A stretch of DNA of 6,574 nucleotides from positions 1 through 6,574 of the forward strand of contig DAOVBK010000093.1 of assembly GCA_030670605.1 (NCBI GenBank). The letters run 5' to 3'. Position 1 is the stretch's first letter; every line of letters starts with the position of its first letter. The stretch comes from Candidatus Stahliibacteriota bacterium (GTDB lineage: Bacteria > Hydrothermota > Tepidihabitantia > SM23-42). Made by a program: the position numbers and the translations under genes. Shown here piece by piece: positions 1-6,574 of the stretch. The notes below the pieces were generated by a model. The model was not told the DNA's origin. It was given only the letters and a program-made list of their open reading frames with translations, and made no database searches.

Positions 1-10
1 GTTTATGTGG

Positions 11-70
11 CGGAAGGAGTCCTGCTTGCAGGACGACGTGGCAATCTCAGAATGTTGAATTTCGAGATTT
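11..70. repeat. Palindromic intergenic element, two hairpins (RPE/REP-like)
   Basis: Two inverted repeats lie back to back. The first is a perfect 7-bp stem, GTCCTGC (19-25) with GCAGGAC (28-34). The second pairs AATCTC (43-48) with GAGATT (64-69) and can extend inward past one mismatch to about 10-11 pairs. The segment GACGTGGCAATCTC resembles the arms of dispersed palindromic elements known in many bacterial genomes (for example the Rickettsia-type GAAGCAATCTC repeats); that resemblance is from memory. The first bases (TATGTGGCGG) may be the right arm of another hairpin cut by the window edge. No T-run follows either stem, so it is not a typical terminator. Confidence 0.45.
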
Positions 71-169
71 GACCCCAAAGGCGGGCATGGTCGGATAGTC
101 AAATCATTGGTGTAACAATAAGACAATACGACTATGGGACAATCAGACACATGAATAGCATTGCGTCTC

Positions 170-198
170 TTGACATCCCATCTTTTTCAGTCTACAAT
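170..198 (+). promoter_or_regulatory. Sigma70-type promoter for the CPDase-kinase unit
   Basis: A perfect -35 hexamer TTGACA (170-175), a 17-nt spacer and a near-consensus -10 TACAAT (193-198) are seen. Transcription should begin around 205-207, only 6-8 nt before the ATG at 213. A weak AGGT at 200-203 would lie upstream of that start point and so outside the mRNA. The transcript is therefore probably leaderless or nearly so. Confidence 0.75.
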
Positions 199-212
199 CA
201 GGTCATAGAATT

Positions 213-719
213 ATGGAAAGGGCAAGCGGGTATTCATTGTGGCTCATGCCGTCTGGTGATGTATTTGATCAGCTGTCGGCGATAATCCATAGCGTGAGCA
301 AAGCACATAGCACCCCTGTTTTCAAACCCCATGTGACCTTGCTCGGTGGCTTGCAGGAAAAAGAAAGTGGAATCATCGCACGAACCAGGAAACTCGCCGA
401 GGTGCTACAACCATATACAATCACACTGAATCGGATTGAATACCGTGATGAGTACTTTCGCTGTTTGTACTACAGTGTTGAAAAAACCACTGAAGTACTT
501 AGTGCATATGCGAGAGTGTGTGATATCTTCAGAATATCACAGGGGCATTATATGCCGCATCTGAGTCTGATGTACGGTGATATCCCACACGCTATGAAAG
601 AAAAAACCGTAGCCAAGATAAAACCGCATGCAAATACATTCACGGTTGAGCACGTAGACCTGGTCCTGACCGATGGTTTGGTTGAAGATTGGCATAAGGT
701 ACGACGATTCGCCTTATGA
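213..719 (+). CDS. 2H phosphoesterase, cyclic phosphodiesterase (CPDase)-like
   Basis: This is a 168-residue soluble protein with the two catalytic HxT/S motifs of the 2H phosphoesterase superfamily: HVT at residues 40-42 and HLS at 116-118, the latter in the context MPHLSLMYGD. That context is typical of the CPDase branch (yeast Cpd1 / plant CPDase), which opens ADP-ribose 1'',2''-cyclic phosphate or nucleoside 2',3'-cyclic phosphates to monoesters. The length matches the family (about 160-200 residues), and GYSLWLMPSG at residues 6-15 fits the usual first strand, which supports the ATG at 213. No signal peptide or membrane segment is seen, so it should act in the cytoplasm. Its stop overlaps the next start (ATGA, 716-719), implying translational coupling to the kinase-like gene. 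RNA 2',3'-cyclic phosphodiesterase/ThpR-type activity is an alternative; the physiological substrate cannot be read from sequence. Confidence 0.85.
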   Translation: MERASGYSLWLMPSGDVFDQLSAIIHSVSKAHSTPVFKPHVTLLGGLQEKESGIIARTRKLAEVLQPYTITLNRIEYRDEYFRCLYYSVEKTTEVLSAYARVCDIFRISQGHYMPHLSLMYGDIPHAMKEKTVAKIKPHANTFTVEHVDLVLTDGLVEDWHKVRRFAL

Positions 720-1468
720 AGAAAAAGAAAAGAAAGATTGTGAAGCCACAGGTTACGAGTTTTGATTTTCAACCGGGAAGAATACTTGCGAGGAAGTATG
801 AGGTTGTCACGTTCCTTGGAAGTGGTTGGGAAGGTGAGGTTTACCTTGTTCGAGAGAAAGAAAGTGGTATAGAACGTACTGCCAAAATTTTCTTTCCGCA
901 GAGGAATGTGCATAACCGCGCAATAAAATTCTATGCGAAGAAATTACACCGTCTTCGACATTGCCCGATTCTCATTCAGTATCATACGCAGGAGCGTATC
1001 ACATTTTGCAGCATGCCGATTACTTTTCTTATATCGGAATATGTTGAAGGAGAATTGCTCCTTCAATTCCTGAAGAAGCAACCGGGCAAGCGACTGACTG
1101 CCTTTGAAGGTTTGCATCTGCTCCATGAACTTGCTGCTGGTGTTGAGATCATCCATCAGGCGCGTGAGTATCATGGCGACCTCCACGACGAGAATATCTT
1201 CATCCGGCGTAGGGGTCTTTCGTTTAATGTCAAGCTTGTCGATATGTATAACTGGGGTGCTCTGAATAAGGAGCACATCCGTGACGATGTATGCGACCTT
1301 ATCCGCCTGTTTTATGATGCGATAGGAGGAGCGCGGCATTATGCGCGACAACCGCAGGAGATAAAGAATATCTGCTGTGGTTTGAAGCGCTCACTTATTG
1401 TACGAAAATTCCGCACGGCTGGTCACTTGCGTAATTACCTGGAGACAATGCCGTGGCGGAGAAGGTGA
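716..1468 (+). CDS. Short atypical protein-kinase-fold protein
   Basis: This 250-residue protein has a very basic N-terminus (KKKKRK at residues 2-7) and then a recognisable kinase fold. It has a glycine loop GSGWEGEV (35-42), the ATP-anchoring Lys57 in TAKIFF, a hinge-like segment SEYVEGELL (107-115) and a catalytic loop HGDLHDEN (153-160) with base Asp155 and Asn160. Asp176 in LVDMYNWG stands where DFG would be, and a DDVCDL segment (190-195) resembles the helix-F aspartate region. The activation segment is very short, no APE motif is visible, and the helix C region (about 66-82) shows no clear glutamate. The C-lobe is minimal, as in small eukaryotic-like, LPS or aminoglycoside kinases. The closing residues WRRR are basic. 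There is no transmembrane segment. The start overlaps the preceding stop by ATGA, so it is co-translated with the CPDase. The substrate (protein, small molecule or nucleotide) is unknown. Confidence 0.8.
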   Translation: MKKKKRKIVKPQVTSFDFQPGRILARKYEVVTFLGSGWEGEVYLVREKESGIERTAKIFFPQRNVHNRAIKFYAKKLHRLRHCPILIQYHTQERITFCSMPITFLISEYVEGELLLQFLKKQPGKRLTAFEGLHLLHELAAGVEIIHQAREYHGDLHDENIFIRRRGLSFNVKLVDMYNWGALNKEHIRDDVCDLIRLFYDAIGGARHYARQPQEIKNICCGLKRSLIVRKFRTAGHLRNYLETMPWRRR

Positions 1469-1473
1469 CGAGC

Positions 1474-1502
1474 TTGACACGGTAGTTTGCATATCATATA
1501 AT
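1474..1502 (+). promoter_or_regulatory. Perfect-consensus sigma70 promoter for the exported-protein unit
   Basis: TTGACA (1474-1479), a 17-nt spacer and TATAAT (1497-1502) match the full housekeeping consensus. The -35 begins 6 nt after the kinase stop codon. Transcription should begin near 1508-1510, giving a leader of about 21-23 nt that contains the ribosome binding site. No operator-like inverted repeat is obvious around it, so expression may be strong and constitutive. Confidence 0.85.
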
Positions 1503-1516
1503 AGGACACAAAAAAG

Positions 1517-1525
1517 AGGAGGAGG
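1517..1525 (+). promoter_or_regulatory. Tandem Shine-Dalgarno that fixes the start at 1531
   Basis: AGGAGGAGG contains two overlapping AGGAGG cores (1517-1522 and 1520-1525), 8 and 5 nt from the ATG at 1531. The alternative in-frame GTG at 1525 shares a base with this site and would have no usable spacing, so ATG 1531 is preferred. Confidence 0.85.
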
Positions 1526-1530
1526 TGTGT

Positions 1531-3678
1531 ATGGTAGTTGTGTTATTGATGGTTACTCTTTTGCTTCCGTCTCAGCATGACGTGACCATTCCGCATGAAA
1601 CATACCGATGTGTCGGTGTAGAACTCGCGACAGAAACACCACCGGAGTTGCCAGCAGTATATTACCCTCTGTATACTGATACGATTTCCTGGGTTTTTGT
1701 AGATGCACTCACGTTTTCAGGACCGCTCATGGACAGTTCGTGCTTCGCTATCCATAATGATAATGGCAGTATTGCCTATTCGATCTCGCCACCGGAATTA
1801 TCTCCGCTCGCACAGGTCGCGGTCGGCTATGCGCCACTGCGTTTCCGTAACGAGTTGACTGCTGCATTTCATAGACTCGACACCTTGCAGGATTTCTACG
1901 CCAATCTTATTCTCAACACGACACTCAAGTATGTTGATGAGGTTATTTTTCAAATATGCTGCATTGGTCCTGAGATTCTATCATATCCAGGATTCGATCC
2001 TGACCTCATCACGCGTAATGCTGAGCTCATGTACGAGCTCGACGATTCTTTGCAGTATGCAAATATCGTTGATTATGCATTTTCGAGCGGTGATTATTAC
2101 TCGACAGTCGAGTACCGGGTCATAGAGAATGGTGACAGCATCTGGTTCGAACTGCCACCAGAGATCTACTACCACTACATTGTTCATCCAATCATCTCTG
2201 ACGAATTTCCTGACATGAGTGCGTATGTCTATTCGCAATTCTGGCGCGAGTATCTATTCTACGAATCAGACAGTGGTTATCCCACCTTGAGTGATTATAT
2301 CAAGCAGGCACACGTAGTCTGGGATGGGCAACGCATTATCTTGCCTCCAGGTCGTCCATTCGAACCGGATGACCATGCGCTCGATGTGATTGGCAACTGG
2401 GCATCGTACACGGTGCCATGGGCAGCCTCAGGCAACAGGCCAATACAGCCTAATATCATTGCCCATGAGCATAATGGAAATTGTGGTGAAATGCAGGACA
2501 TACTCTGCGCTGGCGCGCGGACCTGCCTTATTCCCTCTGTCTGCGTCATGGACATATGCGAAGATCACGTCTGGTGTGAGTTCTATGACCGTGGTTTGTA
2601 TCCCTATCAGGTTGATCTCGGGCACGGTGTGACTCATATCGCGGATACTGGTGTTGCCTATGACGAACAGTATGGTGGGAGTAAACGTGTCTCAGGCATT
2701 TTTGACTGGCGCAGTGATGGCTACTGGTGGACCGTGACCAATACGTATTCCAATACCTGTTCCTTGTACGTGTATGTGTATGACCTCATGGGAAGACCGA
2801 TTGACGGTGCTGCCGTTACTATCTCGTCAGAGTACTACTACGGCGGTTTGAGCACAGCGACACGGGCATGGACAGACCCGCAAGGCATGTGCGCGTTTGC
2901 CCTCGGCGATTTGAGAAACTTCTATGCACGTGTGACAACACCAATCGGTTCCTACCCGGGGAATCCTGGTGAGGTTATTCAGATCATCGAAAACAGCCAG
3001 TCCAGTGCCTGCTATCACAAGGCATTCTATATCGACGATTACCTGCCGACCTTGCGATTCTCAGACACCACGTGTACTGATTCGCTCGCACTATGGAAAT
3101 ACGAAGTCATTGTGGAACCTCTCGAAGGTCAGAGTAGCGGTAACTGCATAACGCGGTATGGTCCTGGCGATTCAATACGGGTGTATCGTAGTTTTTTTGA
3201 AAAATATGACATGGGCAACATCGACGTGCTCTTTGTTGATGACGATAACCTGCAGGACTATCTTGCGGGAATACCATTTGCAGCATACCATGCATGCGCG
3301 ACGACCGGCGGTACTGTGGAATTCATCGCCCATGATTCAGCACTGTACCATTGCATTATTGCCAATCAGGACGTGCTCTACTATACCCCGTTCTGCGATA
3401 TCACGGTGAATCTCTACATCAACCCAGCGTACGGCATCGAAGAAGAGGTTTCTGAAGCCTCATGTGTGCAAAGACTGCCAACGGTGTTCAATCAGAGGAT
3501 ATATGTTGATCTCGATGCACCATCACGCGTGAGGTTGTACGAGATATCAGGCAGGTGTATATACGACTCTCATCACAGGATTCCGTTAATCGACTACCAG
3601 CTTTCTGCCGGAGTGTACTTTCTGAGAACGACAACTGATAATGCAGATACCATCAGTAAGTGTGTTGTCGTCAGGTAG
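1531..3678 (+). CDS. Exported transglutaminase-like protein with sorting tail
   Basis: The product is 715 residues from ATG 1531. Residues 1-14 are a short hydrophobic leader without positive charges, an unusually weak signal peptide. Residues about 20-300 are a family-specific region with no assigned function. The transglutaminase/papain-fold core has Cys318 in GNCGEMQD, His346 in DHVWCEF and Asp362 in YQVDLG, with spacing typical of the family's Cys-His-Asp triad. Residues about 411-480 form a carboxypeptidase-regulatory-like beta domain (YVYVYDLMGRPIDGAAVTI). Residues about 515-635 are another beta-rich domain, perhaps GOLD-like. Residues 644-715 are a FlgD/T9SS type A-like tail (RVRLYEISGR, then SAGVYFLRT, ending in VVVR). 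The catalytic core holds six cysteines within 32 residues. The likely activity is amide-bond chemistry (peptidase, amidase or crosslinking) at the cell surface; the substrate is unknown. Its stop codon overlaps the Shine-Dalgarno of the next gene, with which it forms an operon. Confidence 0.8.
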   Translation: MVVVLLMVTLLLPSQHDVTIPHETYRCVGVELATETPPELPAVYYPLYTDTISWVFVDALTFSGPLMDSSCFAIHNDNGSIAYSISPPELSPLAQVAVGYAPLRFRNELTAAFHRLDTLQDFYANLILNTTLKYVDEVIFQICCIGPEILSYPGFDPDLITRNAELMYELDDSLQYANIVDYAFSSGDYYSTVEYRVIENGDSIWFELPPEIYYHYIVHPIISDEFPDMSAYVYSQFWREYLFYESDSGYPTLSDYIKQAHVVWDGQRIILPPGRPFEPDDHALDVIGNWASYTVPWAASGNRPIQPNIIAHEHNGNCGEMQDILCAGARTCLIPSVCVMDICEDHVWCEFYDRGLYPYQVDLGHGVTHIADTGVAYDEQYGGSKRVSGIFDWRSDGYWWTVTNTYSNTCSLYVYVYDLMGRPIDGAAVTISSEYYYGGLSTATRAWTDPQGMCAFALGDLRNFYARVTTPIGSYPGNPGEVIQIIENSQSSACYHKAFYIDDYLPTLRFSDTTCTDSLALWKYEVIVEPLEGQSSGNCITRYGPGDSIRVYRSFFEKYDMGNIDVLFVDDDNLQDYLAGIPFAAYHACATTGGTVEFIAHDSALYHCIIANQDVLYYTPFCDITVNLYINPAYGIEEEVSEASCVQRLPTVFNQRIYVDLDAPSRVRLYEISGRCIYDSHHRIPLIDYQLSAGVYFLRTTTDNADTISKCVVVR

Positions 3679-3683
3679 GAGGG
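3677..3683 (+). promoter_or_regulatory. Ribosome binding site overlapping the gene 3 stop
   Basis: AGGAGGG overlaps the TAG stop (3676-3678) of the transglutaminase-like gene and lies 3 nt before the ATG at 3687 (core AGGAGG, 4 nt). This supports that start and suggests coupled expression of the two genes. Confidence 0.75.
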
Positions 3684-3686
3684 ACT

Positions 3687-6574
3687 ATGAAGATACGTGC
3701 TACAATACTTATCCTCCTGTGCGTATGCATAGGATTTGCGATTTGGAGCCGCAAGCCGCATGACAAAGGGCTGCTCTATCTCCGTATGACCAATTATGGC
3801 ATGTTCGGGTATGAGAATTTAGGGATCTGGCCTAAGGGAACGAACGAGCATTACATATTTGGTGCCGGTGTCTGGGTTGGTGGTTTGCACAAATCGCACG
3901 ATGATACGACATCGTTGAGCAATGCATGTACAGCAAGTGATACGGTCATCTTCGTTTATTCTACTGACGGGTTCGCCGGAGCCGGTGTGCTTTCCATTGA
4001 GGATGAACTGATATTGTATCACAGCAAAACCGACACGTCATTCAACGGCTTGGTCCGTGGATTTTCCCAGACGCAAGCACTAGGACACAGTTCTGCGACA
4101 ACGGTAACTGAGATGGTGGTGAAAGTCACGGTCGGTTATAATGCATCATCAGCAACGAGTGAATTTGTGCCTGGCGATTTACCGAATGAACCTGGCTATC
4201 CTGACCCGGATGAACGCGTGCTCATGACCGATGACCCCCAGGATACTGCTCTATGGCCCTTGCGTGATCCGCTCGGTGACCCAATCATCCGTTCAAAACA
4301 GGACAGCTATGCTATCTTCAATGACCAGGATTCGTCACGCTGTCCTCAGCCGCTGCTGCTCAAGGTAATACAAGTCGGCTATGCATGGGATTACCATTAT
4401 TACGAAGATTTCATTTTCATAAACTACTATGTTGTTAATGATGGTCCTGATACGATCTATCATGCGTACTTATCGCTGAACTGCGATGCCGATGTTGGCG
4501 ATGCCACCGATGACTTGATCGATTTTGACCAGCCGCGTGACCTCGGTTATGCGTATGATTCCGACTTCAATGAGCCAGGGTGGATACACACACCAGGCTA
4601 TATTGGTTTTGATTTCCTCGAATCACCACTGGATACACTGAACCAGCAAATCGGACTCACCGCATTCAAGATCACACACAATCCTGGTACAGGAGGTCAG
4701 GGTGAGCCAGACCCGGGCACTGACTATGAAGCCTACCAGCTCATTGCTGGGTACAACTATACGTCCGGCGAGTATCATCCCTTTGATTCGATCGAACAAG
4801 CAACCGATGTGCGTTTTCTCCAGTGCACCGGTCCGTTCGACTTTGCACCGGGTGATACGGTGAAGGTTGTGGTCGCGGTTATTGCCGGCGCAGACATGAG
4901 TGACTTTCTTGCCAATGATGACCTTGCCCAGAACCTGTACAACTCAGATTACCTGACCCATGACATCACCGTACTCAATCCTAATGGTGGAGAAGAAATT
5001 GACGGCACATACCAGGTAACCTGGACTGACAGTTCGTCAACCGGGGCACCACTCGTTGTTGATGTATCGTGCAGCCGTGACGGCGGCGCCACATGGGAAG
5101 ATATCGTTACGTCCATACCTGATGTGCACTACTACAACTGGAATACGGTTGATTACCCCGATGGCACACGCTATCTCATGCGTGTGACTGTGCATGATAC
5201 GATCGCTGTTGGCGAGGATTTCTCGGATTCACTGTTCACGGTAAATAATCCCGGTAATGGTATACCCGACGTGGTCCTCCTTGCACCGTTATCCGGAACA
5301 ATACAGGATACAGTGACGGTTGAGTGGTGGGCAAATGATGCAGATGGTGATGTGCTCACCATTGATCTTTTTGCCAAACAGGAAGGCGGTGAGTGGGATA
5401 CGGTTGCAGTCGATCTGCCCAACACAGGCACATACTTGTGGTATACGTTCTATTTCCACAATGCAGACTACCGCATCATGGTTGTTGCACGTGACAATGA
5501 TACGTGTGCAGTCGATTCGAGTTTGCTGCCTGTAACCATTGTCAATGACCATCCGCCTGCAGCAGATATTGAGCATGTGCAGGGCGGATGTAATTCACTG
5601 ACGCTCAACTGCTTGCTGTATGACCCGAATGATGTCACCGGTCATACGTATGAAGTCCGTTTTCATCCGATTGAGAAGGGTGCTGACCCGCCTGATGTGT
5701 ACTATCAATATGACCTGTGGGACATGACAACAAGCACCGCGTTGATCGAACACTGTTCTTTGGAGGTGTTCTACGATGGGAGGTTGCACCGCGTGTACAC
5801 GCCGATCATTGATGGCTTTGCGCTTGAGTTCAACATTCAGATAGACATGGAGTCATTCAGATTCATCGACTTTGAAATCCTTGAGAACGAAAGCGGCTAT
5901 GATGGTAATCTGTTTATCTGGGGTGCTGACAGCATGGGTACGGCGCCACCAATGGGCGGCAATCAATGGTCATTCCGCGGTTCTGATTTTATTGTCTACT
6001 GGAAGCGCTGTACAGATGATACAACCAAGCTGACCCTTGAGGTGCGCGATACAACGAATTGCACGGCGATTGCCTATGATCCGCTCCGCCTTGATTCATG
6101 GCGTTTTGAACCTGGTGTTGCAAGCGACACATTCAATCCTTCGGTGCACAAGCGTTTCTATGTATGCGGTGGCGTGTTCTGGTTCAACATGGATGGTTCA
6201 ATGACGGTGTTGCCTGGTGAGGGTGACATCTGGCAGATACGTTCTTCAGGTCACCGTGTCCCGTGTAATGAAAACATCTACCGGTTCACGACAACGGGCA
6301 TTGCTGAACACGAGTCAGCAGAACTCACGTCATTCTTTTCAGTGTATCCGTCTGTATTTAGAAACAGAACAGATATACGCTACGCAGTAGGCAGTAAGCA
6401 GCACTCAGCAGGTAGTATAAAAATATACGATGTTACTGGGAGAGTGGTCAAATCTTTTGACCCTCTGCCCTACGCCCCAAGCCCTATGCAGATTAGCTGG
6501 GACGGTACTGACGATCACGGTGTGACGCTACCTGCTGGTGTTTATTTTGTGAGGATGCATAGTGATGAAATCAG
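3687..6574 (+). CDS. Large exported multi-beta-domain protein, 3' end outside window
   Basis: The frame stays open for 962 codons plus two bases to the window edge. The N-terminus (MKIR, then hydrophobic residues about 5-20) is a signal peptide or signal anchor. Residues about 30-420 form a conserved-looking beta domain (LRMTNYGMFG, YIFGAGVWVGG, DADVGDATDD, YDSDFNEPGW, RFLQCTGPFDFAPGD). I recall this domain from candidate-phylum surface proteins; its function is unknown. It is interrupted at about 85-142 by a phage-structural-like module. Residues 427-521 are an Ig-like domain (LNPNGGEE, SRDGGATW), about 522-620 a second Ig/Fn3-like domain, and about 620-880 a further beta region with a GDIWQIRSSG motif. 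Residues from 883 are a FlgD/T9SS type A-like sorting domain (VYPSVF, IKIYDVTGRV, SWDGTDDHG, LPAGVYFVRM); its last few residues are missing. No catalytic motif is seen. It is very acidic and Asp/Tyr-rich, probably a structural or adhesive surface protein, and a possible partner of the transglutaminase-like enzyme. Confidence 0.8.
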   Translation, partial: MKIRATILILLCVCIGFAIWSRKPHDKGLLYLRMTNYGMFGYENLGIWPKGTNEHYIFGAGVWVGGLHKSHDDTTSLSNACTASDTVIFVYSTDGFAGAGVLSIEDELILYHSKTDTSFNGLVRGFSQTQALGHSSATTVTEMVVKVTVGYNASSATSEFVPGDLPNEPGYPDPDERVLMTDDPQDTALWPLRDPLGDPIIRSKQDSYAIFNDQDSSRCPQPLLLKVIQVGYAWDYHYYEDFIFINYYVVNDGPDTIYHAYLSLNCDADVGDATDDLIDFDQPRDLGYAYDSDFNEPGWIHTPGYIGFDFLESPLDTLNQQIGLTAFKITHNPGTGGQGEPDPGTDYEAYQLIAGYNYTSGEYHPFDSIEQATDVRFLQCTGPFDFAPGDTVKVVVAVIAGADMSDFLANDDLAQNLYNSDYLTHDITVLNPNGGEEIDGTYQVTWTDSSSTGAPLVVDVSCSRDGGATWEDIVTSIPDVHYYNWNTVDYPDGTRYLMRVTVHDTIAVGEDFSDSLFTVNNPGNGIPDVVLLAPLSGTIQDTVTVEWWANDADGDVLTIDLFAKQEGGEWDTVAVDLPNTGTYLWYTFYFHNADYRIMVVARDNDTCAVDSSLLPVTIVNDHPPAADIEHVQGGCNSLTLNCLLYDPNDVTGHTYEVRFHPIEKGADPPDVYYQYDLWDMTTSTALIEHCSLEVFYDGRLHRVYTPIIDGFALEFNIQIDMESFRFIDFEILENESGYDGNLFIWGADSMGTAPPMGGNQWSFRGSDFIVYWKRCTDDTTKLTLEVRDTTNCTAIAYDPLRLDSWRFEPGVASDTFNPSVHKRFYVCGGVFWFNMDGSMTVLPGEGDIWQIRSSGHRVPCNENIYRFTTTGIAEHESAELTSFFSVYPSVFRNRTDIRYAVGSKQHSAGSIKIYDVTGRVVKSFDPLPYAPSPMQISWDGTDDHGVTLPAGVYFVRMHSDEI
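3939..4110 (+). other. Inserted phage-structural-like beta module in gene 4
   Basis: Residues about 85-142 follow the pattern of a short module seen in phage neck and tail proteins: a Gly-turn, then LSIEDELILYHS, then SFNGLVRGF, then a His-Ser segment (LGHSSATTV). In those proteins the pattern is roughly 'I-D-x-E-x-I-x-Y ... F-x-G ... R-G ... H-S-x-G-x-x-V'. It sits between GAGVWVGG and KVTVGYN, which I expect to be close together in relatives lacking it. The pattern match is seen; the evolutionary link is inferred from memory. Confidence 0.5.
6384..6411 (+). repeat. Four imperfect heptamer repeats (GCAGTAR) inside gene 4
   Basis: Consecutive 7-nt units read GCAGTAG, GCAGTAA, GCAGCAC and TCAGCAG. 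They encode the loop AVGSKQHSAG between two strands of the C-terminal sorting domain. The first two units differ by one base and the others are degenerate. Because 7 is not a multiple of 3, gain or loss of one unit would shift the frame, while three units (21 nt) would keep it. Confidence 0.55.
6461..6488 (+). repeat. Four imperfect heptamer repeats (CCCTAYG) inside gene 4
   Basis: Consecutive 7-nt units read CCCTCTG, CCCTACG, CCCCAAG and CCCTATG. They encode the proline-rich loop PLPYAPSPM just before SWDGTDDHG in the C-terminal sorting domain. Unit length and copy number match the array 50 nt upstream, but the unit sequence differs. Confidence 0.6.

Follow-up and report, generated by a model that had tools for sequence, protein, structure and literature searches.

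Degenerate 7- and 8-nucleotide repeats in two predicted loops of C-terminal sorting domains, and their likely spread as cassettes

Tandem repeats whose units are out of frame should not persist in genes. However, in a Candidatus Stahliibacteriota bacterium (assembly GCA_030670605.1), units of 7 and 8 nt recur across many secreted proteins, each time in two loops of the same type of domain, the C-terminal sorting domain (CTD). We analyzed a window of 6,574 nt (contig DAOVBK010000093.1, positions 1 to 6,574) in which the CTD of one gene, gene 4, holds two arrays of four degenerate heptamers each. We propose that these arrays belong, as degenerate members, to a population of 7- and 8-nt repeats found throughout the genome, that this population lies mostly between genes and, within genes, is concentrated in two predicted CTD loops, and that it spread among paralogous domains as cassettes of ~40 nt by short-tract recombination. 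We consider this account probable (roughly 0.6). An original prediction, made from the sequence of the window, had suggested that small heptamer repeats invade tolerant loops; this idea stands in a sharper form, as a repeat population with one main coding niche that likely spread as loop cassettes. The features of gene 4 on which the argument turns are as follows.

3687..6574, + strand: gene 4, an exported-protein-like open reading frame (ORF) with homologues at 40-91% identity and a full-length model of mean pLDDT (predicted local distance difference test) 85.9
6345..6563, + strand: C-terminal sorting domain, TIGR04183-like and FlgD_ig-like by profile matches
6384..6411, + strand: array 1, four degenerate GCAGTAR heptamers in loop 1, from lag-7 matches; model residues 900-909
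6412..6460, + strand: middle stretch SIKIYDVTGRVVKSFD, non-repetitive, with the conserved strands that separate the loops (910-914 and 920-924 in the model)
6461..6488, + strand: array 2, four degenerate CCCTAYG heptamers in loop 2, from lag-7 matches; model residues 925-934

Array 1 consists of the units GCAGTAG/GCAGTAA/GCAGCAC/TCAGCAG and array 2 of CCCTCTG/CCCTACG/CCCCAAG/CCCTATG, with 16 of 21 and 15 of 21 lag-7 matches, respectively. They are the two best period-7 stretches in the window. Among 1000 codon shuffles of gene 4, none reached 16 matches, seven reached at least 15, and none contained two such stretches at most 105 nt apart; with the period controls given below, this led us to reject a chance origin. 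The units are only 71-76% alike, and the arrays are degenerate, since Tandem Repeats Finder at a minimum score of 30 reports neither. In the third unit of array 1, CAC (6402-6404) stands where the consensus would place an in-frame TAR stop. In the AlphaFold model, strands 894-900 and 910-914 flank the predicted loop 901-909, where array 1 lies, and strands 920-924 and 934-938 flank the predicted loop 925-933, where array 2 lies. With a mean pLDDT of only 61 for block 901-910, loop 1 has an uncertain shape. The original prediction had described two four-unit arrays at these positions, in two loops of a tail resembling FlgD and the type IX secretion system (T9SS), with a non-repetitive stretch between them. 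The match counts and shuffles confirm the arrays, their places agree with inter-strand loops of the model, and the middle stretch covers model strands and is not repetitive.

The domain itself is assigned by profile. The tail matches FlgD_ig at 33.3 bits, above the cut-off of 27 of this curated domain model, and TIGR04183, the T9SS type A sorting domain, at 18.8 bits for the protein alone (under the cut-off of 23) and 25.9 bits in a genome search that includes neighbouring pieces. The nearest solved structures by sequence are PorU (6za2, E 0.0028) and FlgD (3c12, E 0.014). PorU is also encoded in the same genome (449.7 bits, cut-off 420), as is SprA (204.2 bits with neighbours, cut-off 200). 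By these matches, the genome has genes of the T9SS export machinery, which fits a CTD of the T9SS/FlgD type; the role of the tail in export is predicted. Gene 4 has 962 residues in the window and is open at the contig end, with its stop codon beyond the contig; P0001 and P0002, two homologues, suggest that ~10 residues are missing. The full-length model, built with 50 sequences, has a predicted template modelling score (pTM) of 0.58. Relatives of gene 4 occur in records of Candidatus Stahlbacteria, candidate division WOR-3, and TA06.

How common are such arrays in the genome? We surveyed 75 unmasked sequences totalling 489,653 bases (28% of the genome). At a threshold of at least 16 of 21 matches, there were 46 arrays of period 7 and 42 of period 8, whereas a single shuffle gave one array of each. 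All remaining periods between 2 and 13 had 0-6 arrays; period 14 (twice 7) was also raised, with 27 arrays, and period 15 gave 6. Unit families are many and include GCAGTAR, GGGATAC, RCAAARG, ATGGCNT, CCCAAAY, CATTCAC, AACCATCC, and GACNATNN, among others. The octamer arrays that accompany the heptamers are absent from the original prediction. When location was assigned with a simple longest-ORF caller, 103 of 137 arrays of 7- and 8-mers were intergenic, 20 lay in other ORFs (10 of them within 5% of an ORF end), and 14 lay in CTDs, which corresponds to 1.87, 0.048, and 0.93 arrays per kb. Without the ten contigs that had been picked by motif or hold the window, densities were 1.86, 0.031, and 0.27 per kb (84 intergenic, 11 other-ORF, and 3 CTD arrays; CTD versus other ORF, Fisher p 0.0075). 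Domain matches at E 0.01 (42 to FlgD_ig and 54 to TIGR04183) were merged into 59 CTDs, weak matches included; 11 of these hold arrays at a threshold of at least 15 of 21, as do 7 of 1000 coding windows (310 nt each) drawn at random.

Searches for the two motifs of the window covered the whole genome and are free of the contig-picking bias. GCAGTAR arrays occur at nine loci, three of which are loop 1 of a CTD (19 matches versus 1 in the control). CCCTAYG arrays, allowing at most three mismatches, occur at four loci, each in loop 2 of a CTD. Alone, the CCCTAYG search shows no excess, with 5 matches versus 27 for the reversed pattern; however, this control is no clean null because CCCTATG reversed is GTATCCC, an abundant family here. 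A count of stop avoidance among the GCAGTAR loci, where a strict filter kept two CTD loci and dropped the window, led to no conclusion. A genome search for the two motifs and a look at their clustering in C-terminal loops were among the checks that the original prediction had proposed. Its idea that heptamer repeats invade tolerant loops is supported: arrays of many 7-mer families, as well as 8-mers, are scattered through the genome, and in-gene arrays are concentrated in the two CTD loops.

Intergenic octamer arrays often form inverted pairs, TAGTCCTATGGTC.. / ..GACTATCCGACCATAGGAC, that fold as hairpins. Such pairs were seen at L156 (contig C161) 3134-3222, L120 (C80) 3016-3151 and 11228-11399, and L130 (C272) 2791-2979.

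Between paralogues, the DNA of the loops is conserved better than that of the surrounding structural strands. Across the CTDs of this genome, loop 1 carries units of the GCAGTAR, GGGATAC, GCATAGA, or CAGATA family. Loop 2 carries CCCTATG heptamers on contigs C182, C119 (twice), C33, and C104, octamers of the AACCATCC family on C58 (twice), C252 (twice), and C89, and octamers of the GACTATCC family on C237 and C31. The families of the two loops mix; two neighbouring genes on C119 have an identical loop 2 (42/42) and different loop-1 families. We compared pairs among 46 of the 59 CTDs, 13 having been dropped by the anchor rule. In pairs with the same class of loop 2, the DNA identity of the loop exceeds that of both flanks in 29 of 31 cases: 10 of 10 for heptamers (means 0.83 versus 0.64 and 0.68) and 19 of 21 for octamers (0.72 versus 0.61 and 0.62), a class that pools the AACCATCC and GACTATCC families. 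The same was seen in none of 35 heptamer-by-octamer pairs, in none of 146 array-free pairs whose middle strands reach at least 0.56, and in 56 of all 561 array-free pairs. Identity of loop 2 rises to 42/42 and 37/39 where the flanks stand at 0.60-0.83, and paralogous loops have irregular units in a common order as well as common non-repeat edges. Loops should vary more than strands, and therefore short-tract copying is a likely cause of the high loop identity. The difference between 29 of 31 and 0 of 146 pairs argues that the arrays likely travel as cassettes of ~40 nt, which may move by gene conversion or repeat-mediated recombination. For four loop families (GCAGTAR, GGGATAC, AACCATCC, and GACTATCC), intergenic arrays match at 22-25 of 28 bases.

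We also noted a second kind of repeat in loop 1. The loops of L111 (C89, 7483-7620) and L121 (C237, 4182-4310) have a common palindrome-rich insert, CCGTCCCCATGGGACGAGAGTCCTCGTCC, that adjoins degenerate GCAGTAR units.

An array-like loop 1 is common to gene 4 of the window, P0001 (91% identity), and P0002 (84%), and P0002 also keeps a CCCTATG-like loop 2. P0003-P0014 (64-73%, P0007 truncated) have ordinary loops. At the DNA level, no array of at least 14 of 21 matches was found in the twelve relatives of gene 4 with a complete enough tail (33-73% identity), the tail of a thirteenth being incomplete. At the protein level, the 91% sister P0001 has a different loop 2, SSQSLTPKAQSL, which is one residue longer; identity is 0.08 in the loop and 0.75 and 0.81 in the kept flanks. 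Back-translation of this loop gives a period-7 score of 20/26, which is reached by about 1 in 910 body windows. Before loop 1, the tail of gene 4 is closer to its orthologues (mean 0.49) than to its own paralogue C119b (0.25); from loop 1 on, C119b and the orthologues stand at 0.75/0.37, 0.85/0.08, and 0.56/0.40. A crossover near loop 1 may have brought gene 4 its array tail.

Are the same loops hot spots in other genomes? For 267 of 299 homologues (32 were dropped) from three protein families, the third represented by its best 120 of 358 members, we recorded the best lag-p match over synonymous codons in each 11-residue window. Period-7 windows peak in loop 1 (18 of 267), loop 2 (28 of 267), and a linker before the domain (13 of 267), and period-8 windows peak in loop 2 (10 of 267); the rates in body windows (20 and 4 of 6675) would predict ~0.8 and ~0.2. 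In these 267 tails, periods 6 and 9 gave no peaks (at or under 4 and 3), and period-7 and period-8 windows are nearly absent from the strands that separate the loops. Because a 7-nt period does not keep the reading frame and peaks are lacking at periods 6 and 9, we reject the idea that the repeats were selected at the protein level. That 94 of 267 tails contain any period-7 or period-8 window is no evidence alone, because the body rate predicts ~0.3 windows per tail; only the positions of the windows count, not their total. The hot spots are seen in protein sequences of related homologues, and linkers rich in serine, leucine, or arginine can raise the scores. The linker peak, the third and weaker one, lies 28-39 residues upstream of the glycine in the GR motif in the tails of P0003-P0300, for example STFDIRHSSFD in P0051.

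Arrays were also found in DNA from other genomes. G006, a closed relative genome, belongs to a different genus in the same family; of its 104 CTDs, the 30 with the best scores include 5 that carry arrays at a threshold of at least 14 of 21, and four of these five have a CGCCCTACG-type loop 2. Evenly spaced stretches of G006 (400 kb) contain 28 intergenic arrays in 32 kb and 8 arrays in 364 kb of other ORFs. Counted wherever they occur in a genome, the GCAGTAR pattern is present in 17 of 61 relatives and the CCCTAYG pattern in 22 of 147 genomes of the phylum.

The window also contains an octamer array, which precedes its first gene:

114..144, strand not assigned: intergenic octamer array of the GACNATNN family (period 8, 16/21; Tandem Repeats Finder 115-149)

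The GACNATNN family also occupies loop 2 of CTDs on contigs C31 and C237. The genes upstream of gene 4 are a cyclic-phosphodiesterase-like gene (213-719; CPDase, 65.6 bits), which overlaps a protein-kinase-like gene (716-1468; Pkinase, 48.7 bits), and gene 3 (1531-3678), with a weak transglutaminase-like stretch (17.1 bits, below the cut-off). Gene 3 has a sorting tail of its own (TIGR04183, 24.5 bits, cut-off 23) that lacks arrays.

The original prediction had also raised slippage. Acting as a contingency locus, the arrays would switch the sorting tail by gain or loss of units or lengthen the loops in frame. A 7-nt change would indeed shift the frame ahead of the last strands, and one unit-like step occurs in an octamer loop, +8 residues (24 nt) between P0074 and P0075. 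However, phase-variable contingency loci combine highly alike units with length changes between near-identical genes; here the units are only 71-76% alike, and P0068, a 99% homologue of the C58 protein, has one residue changed in loop 1 and equal loop lengths. Loop lengths and array families are also kept in six orthologues, P0002 (84%) and P0069-P0072 and P0077 (70-81%). The extra residue in loop 2 of P0001 came with a change of array family, and between the C33 protein and P0180/P0181 (80-83%) the family differs and length shifts by 1-2 residues. Lengths are narrow overall: loop 2 has 14-21 residues in 208 of the 216 measurable tails (of 267). Moreover, three consensus GCAGTAR units place a stop in every frame. 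In-frame growth by three units, as had been suggested, would thus be closed to array 1, whereas CCCTAYG units are open in all frames. On loop lengths, unit degeneracy, and stops, we set slippage and phase variation aside and regard a contingency locus as very unlikely. Selection may act against stops and loss of the open frame and hold the loops to their length; arrays would therefore change mainly by substitution and replacement rather than slippage. A tolerance of these loops for many stop-free peptides of 9-10 residues may explain why they take up arrays.

Could the array loops be old rather than copied? They might have been inherited once from an ancestral CTD and kept by selection, for example as an export address, as the strands drifted. 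Such descent would make same-class loops more alike than strands, as observed, and motifs such as GSKQYGVSS and NHPTIQQSNH do persist in the loops of C58 orthologues at identities as low as 70-76%. However, the likeness between paralogous loops lies at the DNA level, with flanks less alike, loop families differ between orthologues at 80-91%, and the orthologues of gene 4 at 64-73% have no arrays. We therefore judge descent with function unlikely. It is likewise rather improbable that each array grew in place by duplication of 7- or 8-nt words, with composition favouring similar words. The existence of many families would suit this, as would the proposal, reported in the section of PMC4679880 on such repeats, that 7 nt suits polymerase slippage; however, the same few families recur both in loops and between genes, and paralogous loops have irregular units in a common order as well as non-repeat edges in common. 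Irregular units common to the loops of unrelated genes beyond chance would speak directly against it, and the loop comparison already suggests them. Finally, the two arrays might pair with each other as a DNA or mRNA hairpin. Loop 1 is purine-rich and loop 2 pyrimidine-rich, the arrays of C104 pair well (z -3.9), and fold z-scores against base shuffles lie under -2 in 56% of 50 intergenic octamer arrays. However, the duplex exceeds shuffles in only 1 of 8 CTDs (window z -0.35); we rejected this candidate and find it hardly credible.

Several results weigh against the spread of genomic repeats as loop cassettes. Cassette transfer was not seen directly, and no intergenic source of CCCTATG was found (best 19 of 28 bases, control mean 18.6). 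Neither the paralogue pairs nor the homologues are independent. Outside the motif-picked contigs, only 3 of 43 CTDs hold arrays at a threshold of at least 15 of 21, and the G006 stretches contain only 2 CTD arrays in 3.8 kb, one of them at the outer edge of the domain. The loop of P0001 back-translates nearly as well to period 6 (19/27, ~5/910 windows), and the loop 2 peptide of the window itself is not extreme in this test (~20/910). Moreover, before loop 1 the best own paralogue of gene 4 (0.50) equals the orthologue mean (0.49), which makes the crossover signal soft.

A broader version of the cassette account is possible, and we offer it tentatively. The two sorting-domain loops might serve throughout the phylum as a docking site for heptamer and octamer repeats of the genome. 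Repeat-mediated recombination would exchange ready-made cassettes between secreted proteins and intergenic DNA and could in addition exchange the domain's second half; in this way the surfaces of exported proteins would be supplied and reshuffled by satellite DNA that is selfish or neutral. If the pattern described above holds, it would be a natural, countable system for the passage of non-coding satellite DNA into protein sequence and for unit-wise loop replacement. Repeat traffic may also affect how the loops of such tails are aligned, how their domain trees turn out, and how their genes are called.

How does this pattern compare with known repeats? In the open-access literature joining WOR-3 or T9SS with tandem repeats, we found no account of it. 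Heptameric short tandem repeats are known as STRR sequences in cyanobacteria, where heptanucleotide repeats also sit in loops of RNase P RNA and of the tRNA-Leu intron. The latter likewise occupy tolerant loops of a functional gene product, although these are RNA loops. The arrays described here resemble STRR sequences in having 7-nt units at many dispersed loci (46 period-7 arrays versus 1 in the shuffle) and in being mostly non-coding (103 of 137 intergenic). Heptameric short tandem repeats of Xanthomonas and Nostoc, as far as they are described in PMC4692102, have the same 7-nt units, few copies (often four), and dispersal through the genome mostly outside genes. However, each of those genomes has one main G-rich family, whereas here there are many 7- and 8-nt families and a niche in two loops of one domain. 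The heptameric TAACTGA direct repeats of marine Beggiatoaceae also lie mostly outside genes; according to the passages of PMC4679880 that treat them, they are a single motif, mainly upstream of start codons, and related heptamers are rare.

Repeats within genes are likewise known. Borg genomes have tandem repeats both between genes and in exported proteins, and those inside ORFs are perfect, with units divisible by three, in the account that PMC9879509 gives of them. In contrast, the units here are degenerate, 7 and 8 nt long, and, within genes, concentrated in short loops of a structured domain. Rickettsia palindromic elements, as summarized in a section of the review PMC10969869, are another case of repetitive DNA tolerated in frame within protein genes; they are ~150 bp long, encode a conserved peptide, and insert into unrelated metabolic genes. 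Unlike these elements, the arrays are tandem heptamers and octamers in one domain type, and in these loops we found only 7- and 8-nt tandem units over ~28-45 nt rather than an element of ~150 bp with a conserved palindrome.

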